Of a stretch of DNA of 40,387 nucleotides, positions 8,558-12,166 are shown piece after piece. The stretch comes from Akkermansiaceae bacterium (GTDB lineage Bacteria > Verrucomicrobiota > Verrucomicrobiia > Verrucomicrobiales > Akkermansiaceae). The stretch is taken from positions 1 to 40,387 of the forward strand of contig CAIRGO010000180.1 of the NCBI GenBank assembly GCA_903878115.1, read 5' to 3'. The first letter of the stretch is position 1; each line of letters begins with the position of its first letter. The notes below the pieces were generated by a model. That model was not told where the DNA came from and searched no databases. It was given only the letters and a program-made list of their open reading frames with translations. The position numbers and the translations under genes are program-made.

Positions 8558-8603
8558 TTGGTCTGGAATGCTGTCGATGGTAATGATTATCTGCTGCTTG
8601 ACG

Positions 8604-9374
8604 ATGACAAAATTTCGACCATGTATTGATCTTCACGCTGGCAAAGTAAAACAAATTGTCGGCGGCACCCTGCGTGATAGCGGAGAAGGACCGCGCGAGA
8701 ATTTTGTTTCTGAGAATAGCGCTGCTTGGTTCGCAGCGAAATACCGCGATGATCAACTAAGCGGCGGACACGTCATTTGCCTTGGCCCAGGAAATCTACA
8801 AGCAGCAAGGGAGGCTCTGCAAGCCTGGCCTATTGGACTTCAAATCGGCGGCGGCGTGACAGTTACGAATGCCACAGAATGGCTCACAGCGGGAGCAAGC
8901 CATGTGATTGTCACCTCATCATTGTTTGATACTTCAGGGAATTTTTTGCCTGCGCAACTGGATGCTTTTGTAAACGAAGTGGGGCGTGAAAAATTAGTCA
9001 TCGATCTGAGTTGCCGACGCACATCGGATGGGTGGCAAGTAGCGATGAATCGCTGGCAAACATTGACGGAACTCTCGATCAATGCAGCGACACTCGATCA
9101 TCTCGCGGAGCATTGTGCGGAATTTTTGATTCATGCTGCGGATGTCGAAGGGCTCTGCGGTGGCATTGATGAGGAACTAGTGAAATTATTAGGTGAATGG
9201 GGCGGAATTCCCATGACCTATGCTGGTGGGGTAGCGGACTTTTCCGATTGCGAAAAAGTCCAACACTTGAGCCATGGAAAATTGGATGTCACGGTGGGCA
9301 GCGCTTTGGATTTATTTGGCGGAAAAGGTGTGACATATGCTGAACTCGTAGCTTGGAATCATAGAGTTAACTAA
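8604..9374 (+). CDS. hisA: HisA, eukaryotic (HIS6) type ProFAR isomerase
   Basis: 256 residues from the ATG that gives MTKFRPCIDLHAGKVKQIVG, the usual N-terminus; an upstream in-frame ATG at 8568 would add 12 residues unlike the family. It is a (beta/alpha)8 barrel with the first catalytic Asp in CIDLHAGKVKQIVGG, then LQIGGGVT, VIVTSSLF, VIDLSCRR, MNRWQTLTELSI, LIHAADVEGLCGGID and YAGGVADF. These wordings are those of yeast and plant HIS6 and of the eukaryotic-type HisA seen in some bacteria, not of the common bacterial HisA. It isomerises ProFAR to PRFAR in histidine synthesis. No other his gene is nearby; tatD follows after four bases. Confidence 0.88.
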   Translation: MTKFRPCIDLHAGKVKQIVGGTLRDSGEGPRENFVSENSAAWFAAKYRDDQLSGGHVICLGPGNLQAAREALQAWPIGLQIGGGVTVTNATEWLTAGASHVIVTSSLFDTSGNFLPAQLDAFVNEVGREKLVIDLSCRRTSDGWQVAMNRWQTLTELSINAATLDHLAEHCAEFLIHAADVEGLCGGIDEELVKLLGEWGGIPMTYAGGVADFSDCEKVQHLSHGKLDVTVGSALDLFGGKGVTYAELVAWNHRVN

Positions 9375-9378
9375 CGCC

Positions 9379-10188
9379 ATGCTCATTGATTCCCATTGCC
9401 ATTTGGCATCGCATAAATTTCCCGCTGCTGAAGTGCCGGAATTGCTAGAACACGCAGCGACCGCTGGTGTGACTCAAATGATTAGTCTGGCGACCTGCCT
9501 CGAAGACATTCCAAAAAACCTCGCGATCGCAAAAGAAAATCCACAAGTGAAAGTCTGCCTAGGGATTCACCCTTGCGATGTACATCACGCTCCCGATCAA
9601 GCCACCGACTTGATCGCAACATATCTTGATGATACGAACGTGGTCGGCATCGGCGAAACTGGCTTGGACTACTTTCATCCTGCGCCTGATGGATGGAGCG
9701 ACGAAACATTTCGTCAGCGGCAACGTAATTTTTTGGAAAGTCATTTTGTTATAGCCAAACGATTTTCCTTACCAGTAGTTATACACACACGAGACCAGAT
9801 TGGCAGTCAATCATTTGAAGATGCATTGGCAATCTATCAACGCCACGCGGATCATGTGAGAGCAATTTTTCATTGCTTCATTAGCACACGAGAAAATGCA
9901 GAGCGAGTCATCACACTGGGTGGTATGGTTTCCTTTGGCGGCGTAGCCACCTTCAAAAGCGCTACCGATGTGCTAACAGTCGCGAGTGCTTTGCCACAAG
10001 GGACATTTTTGTTAGAAACCGACTCGCCTTATCTCGCACCAATGCCCCATCGCGGGAAGCGCAATGAACCAGCGTTCGTAAAACACACCGCAGAGCATAT
10101 CGCTGCGGCGCGAGGTGAATCTCTAACGGAAATATCTGAATACACCAGCAAGGCCGCGCAGTATTTTTTTCCTCGGCTCACTCAATGA
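9379..10188 (+). CDS. tatD: TatD family metal-dependent hydrolase
   Basis: 269 residues, a TIM-barrel amidohydrolase of the TatD type: metal-binding H-x-H in DSHCHLA (H6, H8), GIHPCDV, the metal glutamate in GIGETGLDYFH, LPVVIHTRD, FHCF and the closing LLETDSPYLAP with the metal aspartate. TatD proteins are cytoplasmic 3'-5' DNases or exonucleases with roles in DNA repair and, in some species, D-aminoacyl-tRNA deacylation. The start ATG follows hisA by four bases with no Shine-Dalgarno sequence, so translation may be coupled. The 3' end overlaps the stop of the convergent POT gene by seven bases. Confidence 0.92.
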   Translation: MLIDSHCHLASHKFPAAEVPELLEHAATAGVTQMISLATCLEDIPKNLAIAKENPQVKVCLGIHPCDVHHAPDQATDLIATYLDDTNVVGIGETGLDYFHPAPDGWSDETFRQRQRNFLESHFVIAKRFSLPVVIHTRDQIGSQSFEDALAIYQRHADHVRAIFHCFISTRENAERVITLGGMVSFGGVATFKSATDVLTVASALPQGTFLLETDSPYLAPMPHRGKRNEPAFVKHTAEHIAAARGESLTEISEYTSKAAQYFFPRLTQ

Positions 10189-12068
10189 TGCAAATGTGAC
10201 TTGGGACGACAGATTATCGCAAAAGGAATATAGATTACTGCCGCCACAAGCATCAGTATGGTAAAGAATCGAAAATACGCGGTGCCTTCCAGTTGCGTCT
10301 GGCCGCCAGAAAAATATTCCTTCTCGTAGGAGGTGTTCTTGTTCTCTGCTTTCTTCACACCCAATGTGGCGGAGCGGTTGTCCAACCAAGTATCTTTAGG
10401 ACGAAAACGATCAAACCACGAAGCCACTTTTTCTGAAGATGATTGGCTTAGCTTGATCGTCACTCCCATGTCCCACTGTGTATCTGATATGCGATCAGGT
10501 CCTGCTGAGGTGAGTCGGCAAGAACTCTGACTGGTAATTTTATATTGAATGGGATTACCCCAAGGATCTTTGCCGAGCATGACAGGAGTCATCGAAGTTA
10601 CGGAAGAAAACGTATTGCTATTTTTTAGAGCAGCATCGATTACTTGTTTCGCTGCGCGTTCTAAAGAATCCTGCGCAGGATCAGCAAATTCGATCGATTT
10701 TAGCGAGCCCTTGTCGAGTCGAGCGATCAAGTCATCCTCCGTCCCCGTCACTTGGTCATAACCTGGAAGTATTGCATTTTTCGCATCATTGACCCACTGC
10801 GGATCTTGTGATTTTTTAAGCTGCGTAAATTGCTCAATGCTCGAAGATGGGATCTGAATGAAATGATTGATTTTAGCCGTGAAAATATTCCCGACAAATA
10901 CGGCTAACAAATACAGCGCCATGATCATCGACTTCATATTTTTAGGTGCTTGCGTGTAGGAAAATTCCAAGCCCACAATCGAAATCATGATTTCCGCCGC
11001 AGTGATAATGGCATAGGCTAACAATTGCCAAACAATCGAAGGTCGATCGCCCGCATCGATCCATGATTGAATCAGTGTGATCAAACCAAATGCTAGAGCT
11101 ACCAGAAATAACCCAATGCCAATTTTGCGCAACGGAGTCAGCGGAAAAAAACGATGAATCAGCGGATACACGAGAAAAGTAAACAGCGGAATGTACAGCA
11201 AAATCAAAATCGGATTGACTGCCTGCACCTGTGACTCTAGCCAATCGATGCCCATAAAATGCAAGTTCATCTTCTCTGCTTGCATGATCCACGAAGAACC
11301 CGTTTGATCATACAAGGCCCAGAACAATGCGATAAAAAGATAGAGCGGAATGAGTTTTATCAAAGCCATCAGACCATCTTTGGAAAATAGCTCTTTGAAA
11401 AACTTTAGACCTCCCGCAGGGACATGGATGAACTTTTTTCGCCCCAGCCAAAACATAAAGGTAGCAATCGCCATCAATACACCTGGCACACCAAAGGCGA
11501 CATGCGGACCATACCACTCTAACAACCAAGGCGTCAGCAACGTCGAAAAAAACGATCCGAAGTTGATCGAGAAATAAAACCAATTGTAAATTTTAGTAAG
11601 CAGATGAAAATTCCCAGCACCGAATTGATCACCCACGTGAGCTGACACACATGGCTTGATGCCACCTGAGCCGATGCAAATCATCAACAGACCAGCAAAC
11701 AGAAAGTAAGGAGAATTTCCAGCAACACCCATGCATGCTAGAGCGGCGTGGCCAAGGCAGTAAACAATGCTGAGTAAAATAATCGTTCGATATTTCCCTA
11801 AAAACACATCACTCAACAACGCGCCAAATAGCGGAGTAAAATAAACCCAAGCGACAAACGAATGGTAATGTTCTGTCGCCGCTGCATCCGTCATGGCTGT
11901 TCCGGCCCTTTGGTCCATGAGCCATAGATACTTGGTCATGAACACAAATAAGATCGTGCGCATGCCGTAAAACGAAAACCGCTCCGCCGCTTCGTTGCCG
12001 ATGATGTAAGGAATCCCCGGTGGCATCAAAGGAGAATCCAAGGGCACATCGCGATATGTTTTACTCAT
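10182..12068 (-). CDS. POT/PTR2 family peptide:H+ symporter with a GspG-like inserted domain
   Basis: 628 residues from the ATG giving MSKTYRDVPL; a TTG 36 bases upstream is less likely. The first helix carries the POT signature ExxERFSFYG (26-35), which binds the proton and peptide, and later helices have GSGGIKPCVSAHVGDQF and NWFYFSINFGS. POT proteins are inner-membrane importers of di- and tripeptides. Unusually, about 190 hydrophilic residues (about 405-595) separate the last two helices; the family normally has a short loop here. This insert holds DPWGNPIQY and SAGPD, the hallmark of the C-terminal domain of type II secretion pseudopilin GspG. The 14-helix topology would put it in the periplasm. 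The gene lies downstream of the ThuA and DapA-family genes on the same strand. Confidence 0.88.
   Translation of the reverse strand: MSKTYRDVPLDSPLMPPGIPYIIGNEAAERFSFYGMRTILFVFMTKYLWLMDQRAGTAMTDAAATEHYHSFVAWVYFTPLFGALLSDVFLGKYRTIILLSIVYCLGHAALACMGVAGNSPYFLFAGLLMICIGSGGIKPCVSAHVGDQFGAGNFHLLTKIYNWFYFSINFGSFFSTLLTPWLLEWYGPHVAFGVPGVLMAIATFMFWLGRKKFIHVPAGGLKFFKELFSKDGLMALIKLIPLYLFIALFWALYDQTGSSWIMQAEKMNLHFMGIDWLESQVQAVNPILILLYIPLFTFLVYPLIHRFFPLTPLRKIGIGLFLVALAFGLITLIQSWIDAGDRPSIVWQLLAYAIITAAEIMISIVGLEFSYTQAPKNMKSMIMALYLLAVFVGNIFTAKINHFIQIPSSSIEQFTQLKKSQDPQWVNDAKNAILPGYDQVTGTEDDLIARLDKGSLKSIEFADPAQDSLERAAKQVIDAALKNSNTFSSVTSMTPVMLGKDPWGNPIQYKITSQSSCRLTSAGPDRISDTQWDMGVTIKLSQSSSEKVASWFDRFRPKDTWLDNRSATLGVKKAENKNTSYEKEYFSGGQTQLEGTAYFRFFTILMLVAAVIYIPFAIICRPKSHLHH
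10284..10856 (-). other. GspG-like periplasmic insert of the POT transporter
   Basis: This marks the codons of the hydrophilic insert between membrane helices 13 and 14. It starts with a charged helical part and a stretch PGYDQVTGTEDDLI, continues with a helix rich in Ala/Lys, then MLGKDPWGNPIQY and LTSAGPDRISDTQWDMGVTI. The D-P-W-G-N-P then S-x-G-P/A-D order is the calcium-binding beta-domain signature of major pseudopilins (GspG). No pilin-type prepilin peptidase site or pilin helix is present, so only the globular part is used. I infer an extracytoplasmic binding or interaction domain. Confidence 0.6.
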
Positions 12069-12166
12069 CGGCAGCAGTGTGAAAAAAATGACAGCCCTGG
12101 GCAATGGAAAAATTTACGATTGAAACCAAACGTGGCTCATCAATCGCATTGTCTAACAAGGTTACG

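Follow-up and report, generated by a model that had tools for sequence, protein, structure and literature searches.

A peptide symporter of Verrucomicrobiales with a GspG-related domain between its last two membrane helices

What is a domain of some 190 residues doing between the last two membrane helices of a bacterial peptide transporter? The question is raised by a POT/PTR2 family gene (Table 1) in the window, by which we mean the whole stretch of 40,387 nucleotides analysed here, from an Akkermansiaceae bacterium. The open reading frame opens with TTG. Comparison with relatives places the likely start at a Met at residue 13 (position 12068), which gives a 628-aa form.

The transporter itself could be classified. 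The ORF matches Pfam PTR2 (PF00854) at 2.7e-80, with 270.6 bits against a curated cut-off of 27, and its closest solved structures in phmmer are PepTSo (2.2e-98), the POT of PDB 6ei3, which we take to be PepTXc (6.1e-86), and mammalian PepT2 (1.4e-71). Modelled by AlphaFold2 from 33 aligned sequences (mean pLDDT 79, pTM 0.79), the 628-aa form has 12 membrane helices, with a gap of 21 residues between helices 6 and 7 and of 190 between helices 11 and 12. The model matches the major facilitator fold, with VIA Z scores of 35.5 to PepT2 (397 residues, 38% identity), 34.6 to 6ei3 and 34.2 to PepTSo. Helix 1 carries what we take to be the ExxER motif (Table 1). A helix-10 glutamate, E368, is invariant in 33 of 33 aligned rows, and an acidic residue in helix 10 is presumably a feature of the POT family. 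By identity and fold, the protein is a proton-coupled peptide symporter of the PepTSo/PepT kind, transport itself being predicted. At two related loci (L032 and L077, one genome each) the POT gene is divided over two reading frames, through either broken genes or sequencing errors.

Table 1. Features of the insert-bearing POT gene in the window.
Feature	Position	Strand	Basis or remark
Insert-bearing POT/PTR2 peptide symporter gene	10182..12104	minus	640 aa from TTG
Helix-1 ExxER motif (E-A-A-E-R)	11979..11993	minus	E26, E29, R30 invariant, 33 rows
Membrane helix 11	10857..10943	minus	AlphaFold2 model mc86402244101, residues 376-404
Inserted domain, 190 residues, predicted periplasmic	10287..10856	minus	between helices 11 and 12 (model)
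Front acidic loop GYDQVTGTEDD, GspG-type	10731..10763	minus	G37, D39, D46 invariant, D47 nearly so
Inserted-domain helix ahead of DPWG strand	10623..10676	minus	insert-model residues 66-83
DPWGNPIQY motif	10542..10568	minus	sequence, insert alignment, hhalign against GspG
Rear loop SAGPDRISDTQWDMG, GspG loop equivalent, Trp for first Asp of DD	10464..10508	minus	alignments
Membrane helix 12	10212..10286	minus	AlphaFold2 model mc86402244101, residues 595-619

The insert corresponds to residues 405-594 of the 628-aa form (ORF residues 417-606). The initial annotation had placed about 190 codons between the last two membrane helices, at 10284-10856, and had read DPWGNPIQY followed by SAGPD within them. 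The model agrees on the length and nearly on the bounds, and both motifs are present in that order. We aligned the inserts of 32 of the 35 loci of a named-genome scan with that of the window (33 rows), leaving out L077, which is divided over two frames, L079, which lacks the insert, and L080, which is truncated. D102 and G124 never vary in this alignment and W104, P125 and D126 hardly do, which argues that the insert motifs are not chance; L006 and L050 have DPWE instead of DPWG. A separate model of the insert (pLDDT 80, pTM 0.70) shows a strand pair at the front, then a helix leading into further strands, and predicts an alpha/beta domain. Because the POT fold has its N and C termini inside, the helix 11-12 loop should lie outside, and the periplasmic location suggested earlier for the insert is supported as a consequence of that fold (twelve-helix model, VIA match). 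A charge count over the short model loops agrees weakly with an outer insert (inside, 9 K+R against 4 D+E; outside, 3 against 3, insert excluded).

Other POT structures carry their extra residues elsewhere. PepTSo (PDB 4uvm, 2xut) and the POT of 6ei3 share the fold and the sequence core with the window protein, but the arrangement is reversed: they have about 80 more residues between helices 6 and 7, presumably the helices HA/HB, and their helix 11-12 loop leaves no space for a domain. Mammalian PepT1 and PepT2 (SLC15A1/2), whose twelve-helix core is shared, also have an outer domain of about 190 residues (391-580 in mouse PepT1, as given in PMC4597091). That ectodomain is described in the same paper as lying between helices 9 and 10 and as comprising two immunoglobulin-like folds, whereas the window insert lies between helices 11 and 12 and appears pseudopilin-like. 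The gap left by the PepT2 ectodomain in the phmmer alignment falls near query residues 334-340, away from the insert; with the published position, this bears out the earlier statement that the two sites differ. The mammalian ectodomain is also described there as dispensable and as binding trypsin (PMC4597091).

The insert could be part of the transport machinery, capping or steadying the outer ends of helices 11 and 12 and shaping gating or substrate entry, as do elements of the MFS proteins QacA and Rv1410, which occupy the same loop (PMC10576003). Such elements of DHA2-type transporters matter for transport as described in that paper, where lipid transport is lost in MHAS2168 truncations and partly or fully in those of Rv1410, and a loss is cited for QacA. 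The membrane-side flanks of our insert are among its best conserved columns (I5 and Q6 at the front; G189, G190, L194, G196, Y199 and F202 behind), as a gating role would predict. Yet relatives without the insert exist (L036, L038-L041, L079), and mammalian PepT2 is reported to be functional without its ectodomain (PMC4597091). Moreover, the Rv1410 group has a helical extension of 31-38 residues, as described in PMC10576003, whereas the window protein has a predicted alpha/beta domain of 190 residues in a different MFS family. As some relatives do without the insert and the domain is predicted to form a fold of its own, we favour an accessory platform on the outer side of the transporter; gating is the main rival, possible but somewhat unlikely.

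From which protein might such a platform domain derive? The initial annotation had recognised in the insert the C-terminal domain of GspG, the type II secretion pseudopilin. The part of this claim that stands is the relationship of the core; assignment to the GspG family does not. On the window's insert, Pfam T2SSG (PF08334) scores 15.8 bits, below its cut-off of 21, and the prepilin leader pattern G[FMLI]T[LM][LIVM]E occurs in 0 of 33 inserts, the insert starting after transporter helix 11. Membership is rejected on both counts. T2SSG is, all the same, the family matched by most inserts when these are scanned singly (23/33 at E <= 1, best 3.5e-4). We built a Verrucomicrobiales GspG profile from 29 proteins that Pfam, rather than the insert, had retrieved (28 out of 29 new loci from a T2SSG search, plus one own-genome locus); 29 of 30 loci had the pattern used, a pilin leader plus D-x-W, and L123 failed. 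In hhalign, the insert profile matches this profile at 96.3% over 51 columns (E 1.5e-9, from a one-profile comparison). With gappy columns removed, the real score is 59.4 against a maximum of 21.2 in 100 column-shuffled profiles. The core DPWGNP ... S-x-G-x-D ... D-[IL]-G is thus present in the insert in GspG order, and these profile comparisons support homology of the insert core to GspG. Like GspG/PulG, the insert has the DPWGNP strand, the S-x-G-P-D loop and a helix ahead; unlike them, it has an additional acidic loop at the front and, in most rows, a rear loop with WD in place of DD; no prepilin site could be found in it, and it is embedded in a transporter.

The fold comparison proposed with the initial annotation gave a divided answer. 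A Foldseek search of the PDB with the insert model returned nothing significant (best E 0.29) and no pilin among the best 50 rows. In contrast, VIA run on the Foldseek candidates ranked pilins or pseudopilins as the top five of 997 chains (4d40 at 6.7, 1qve at 6.6, 3soj at 6.5, 4noa at 5.9 and GspG 3g20 at 5.5, with a kinase next at 4.2), although Z values below 8 fall in a range that the tool itself calls common. This ranking agrees with the profile comparison; since the Z values are modest, a pilin-type fold is consistent rather than proven. GspG 3G20, PilE 4NOA and PilBac1 4D40 are given in PMC5131608 as structures similar to one and the same pilin. A single-sequence search of the PDB with the insert gave no match. 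In a profile search, five GspG entries appeared at non-significant E values (0.29-1.4); two PsaE chains, which align with a different part of the insert, ranked above them (0.078 and 0.2). No immunoglobulin-like or peptidase-like fold stands out among the matches listed by Foldseek and VIA, which excludes neither.

The GspG likeness might instead be convergent, an unrelated domain having come to share a short DPWG / GxD loop motif. Profile matches do span only about 40-50 columns, and both the Foldseek null and the sub-threshold Pfam score fit such convergence. However, the DPWGNP strand and the GPD loop occur in the same order and with the same spacing as in GspG, none of the 100 shuffles came near the real score, and the leading VIA chains are pilins or pseudopilins. 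Run over 288 genomes of the phylum, the insert profile also produced 77 rows of weaker matches, and for 71 of these the open frame is shorter than 300 aa. Twenty loci were read: 15 drawn from the weaker rows, six of them for their long frames, and five from T2SSG hits in the window's own genome. An ORF was marked by the profile in 19 of the 20, and 10 have a protein with a pilin-type leader; the remaining loci held lipoprotein-like, membrane-anchored or other short proteins. We consider convergence quite unlikely and retain a GspG-related core for the inserted domain.

T2SSG-like sequences occur in other settings as well. In the window's own genome, L117 and L118 (contigs C213 and C227) encode near-identical GspG-like proteins with a lipoprotein-like start (CGC) and no pilin leader, that is, a T2SSG-type domain without the pilin helix; each lies near a contig end, and the two are possibly variants of one gene. 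At L110 (G208:C1), three T2SSG-like ORFs follow one another; the first opens with a pilin leader, whereas the second and third have lipoprotein-like starts. L099, L101 and L111, from other families of the phylum, appear by eye to have a membrane anchor followed by a T2SSG-like part, with a zinc-ribbon-like start in two of the three. These last three may be further uses of a T2SSG-like domain outside pili.

The calcium ligands of GspG are aspartates of its C-terminal loop, and Korotkov 2009 is reportedly the primary paper on this calcium. The GspG loop ending in T-x-D-D-I-G is connected with calcium in PMC10574481 and PMC6692295. In hhalign, this loop aligns with the rear loop of the insert (consensus S-x-G-P-D-x4-T-x-W-D-x-G), which partly keeps the acidic residues and in most rows has WD for DD. 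A second GspG-like loop, PGYDQVTGTEDDL, absent from the initial annotation, lies at the front of the insert (consensus P-G-Y-D-x3-G-T-x-D-D-L). It compares with the GspG loop at 75% and a score of 27.5, against <=17.55 in 100 shuffles, and only marginally with the rear loop (score 18.5, 34%; best shuffle 16.8).

The two loops appear to vary together. In an alignment tally of 55 unique rows, the front loop is intact in 48, and all 48 of these have the rear Trp; L024, L032, L153 and L154, read by eye, likewise combine the two. The front loop is missing from L021 and L031, which keep the Trp, and from L033, L034, L035 and L074, which have the canonical DD. Canonical rear DD is thus found in 4/6 rows without the front loop against 0/52 rows with it; L077, whose front is unreadable, stands outside this count. 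As the DD rows represent two of four lineages in the tree, partly on unstarred branches, we take the trend as no more than suggestive. The rear loop is degraded in some rows that have the front loop, reading GPE...WN in L012, L014 and L067 and GPG...WS in L153. We suggest from these alignments that a putative metal site would lie in the front loop in the long form and in the rear loop in the reduced form.

How widespread is the insert? A whole-protein search of 57 genomes, the window's own included, found a match in 44. By query coverage, the insert or its rear part is present in 35 of these (28 in f1, the window's family, and, in other families of its order, five in f2 and two in f6), and nine have none. 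The named-genome scan, which recovers close relatives only, gave 35 loci, of which 34 are labelled Verrucomicrobiota at various ranks and one is a contig labelled Phycisphaerae without the insert. The insert-bearing POT is present in the named strains Luteolibacter marinus NBU1238 and Roseibacillus persicicus KCTC 12988, and a Haloferula locus was also returned. This POT is also present, at 72-75% identity, on four MAG contigs with the label Akkermansia muciniphila (L047, L050, L052 and L081); the labels look doubtful, as L047 sits in the window's genus g1 and not in g3.

Across 288 genomes of the phylum, 69 have a POT, and a strong insert-profile match (E 2.9e-36 or better, full or near full length) was found in 10, all in f1. 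The insert is thus not a usual part of the POT family in this phylum, which was one doubt attached to the initial annotation. A long POT in G197 was rejected as a further case, since its extra part consists of membrane helices between helices 6 and 7, another region. We constructed a tree of the transporter core without the insert, by a quick method and from 46 hand-chosen rows (those labelled full include L021 and L074, both without the front loop). One starred branch (98) parts the 32 insert-bearing from the 14 insertless rows, and short insert forms fall inside the insert-bearing set. A single gain followed by reductions is the simplest reading of this tree. The earlier proposal of an independent addition to a bacterial peptide symporter gains support from this single branch and from the absence of the insert from the other POTs examined, which points to a separate acquisition. 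We compared 43 pairs whose core dS stays under 1.2. For the insert, dN/dS has a defined value in 41 of them, always below 1 (0.05-0.55), and the insert is under purifying selection. In all but one of these 41 pairs, which are not independent, its dN/dS exceeds that of the core; the insert evolves faster, so parts of it may be loosely constrained.

Given its relationship to GspG, the domain might dock on the type II secretion pseudopilus or compete for its subunits, coupling exoprotease secretion to peptide uptake. Of 57 genomes sampled from the order, counting the window's own, 42 have a T2SSG match (E <= 1e-12), and none of the 13 genomes of genus g3 in that sample does. In parallel, the 70 genomes with an insert match include none from g3, though a POT is present in 22 g3 genomes. 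Against this stand the insert's lack of a prepilin site or a hydrophobic helix for packing with pseudopilins, and family f4, which has GspG-type genes yet insertless POTs. Nor was any type II secretion gene recognised among the families that recur near the POT gene. Any direct link to type II secretion is conceivable but tenuous, and we think this coupling very unlikely.

The neighbourhoods were sampled at 35 loci, up to 4 kb per side and often ended by contig ends. A relative of the window's TatD occurs in 16 of them, an upstream family in 20 and a gene that looks like PlsX in 15. The 14 clusters that recur most often, some of them frames that overlap the POT itself, were viewed by eye, and no secretion or peptidase gene was recognised among them. 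Neither the five window neighbours, compared with a family library, nor the commonest neighbour clusters, viewed by eye, indicate a partner for the insert. In the window, the POT and TatD genes are convergent with a 7-base overlap at 10182-10188, while at L053 and other loci TatD lies downstream of the POT on the same strand. The ORF at 8568-9374 encodes a HisA of the eukaryotic type (TIGR02129 hisA_euk, 2.3e-106, over its cut-off); the usual bacterial HisA models score far under their cut-offs.

Although the assembly behind the window is a draft in 331 contigs, a chimeric gene or other assembly or annotation artefact has a negligible chance of being the explanation and is refuted by independent genomes, the same arrangement being found in 35 genomes and in both named strains.

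Our preferred reading remains a symporter with a once-gained, pseudopilin-derived platform domain. In an ancestor within Verrucomicrobiales, a POT would have gained a periplasmic domain once, in the helix 11-12 loop, derived from the globular domain of a GspG-type pseudopilin with the pilin membrane helix left out. The twelve-helix core would transport di- and tripeptides by itself, and the inserted domain would form its own fold on the outside, where a metal ion held by one or other of its two GspG-type acidic loops would probably lend it rigidity. There it may serve as an accessory platform above the pore, holding a protein or envelope partner near the entry site; a peptidase or an exported enzyme are candidates. 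This role is modelled on the proposal for the mammalian PepT ectodomain, to which such a docking platform would be analogous but of independent origin. We advance the explanation as a whole tentatively, as close to an even call. In a bolder version, which we find unlikely, the domain is a bacterial counterpart of the PepT ectodomain, drawn independently from a secretion pseudopilin, that tethers exported or periplasmic peptidases over the symporter and whose metal site has shifted out of the rear GspG loop into a front loop that arose by duplication; the GspG-form rear loop (DD) is present in two of the four lineages lacking the front loop.

Our literature search found no binding or transport data for these insert-bearing POTs and, judged partly from search results alone, no paper on this insert. 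To our knowledge, no such domain is on record at the helix 11-12 position in bacterial POTs. New here are a POT symporter carrying a novel inserted domain and a second GspG-type acidic loop. The clade is a bacterial exception of another kind, with a different domain at another outer loop, and it suggests that a pseudopilin-type domain is used outside a filament. Its relatives with and without the domain form a natural comparison, by which the role of POT ectodomains would become testable in bacteria.
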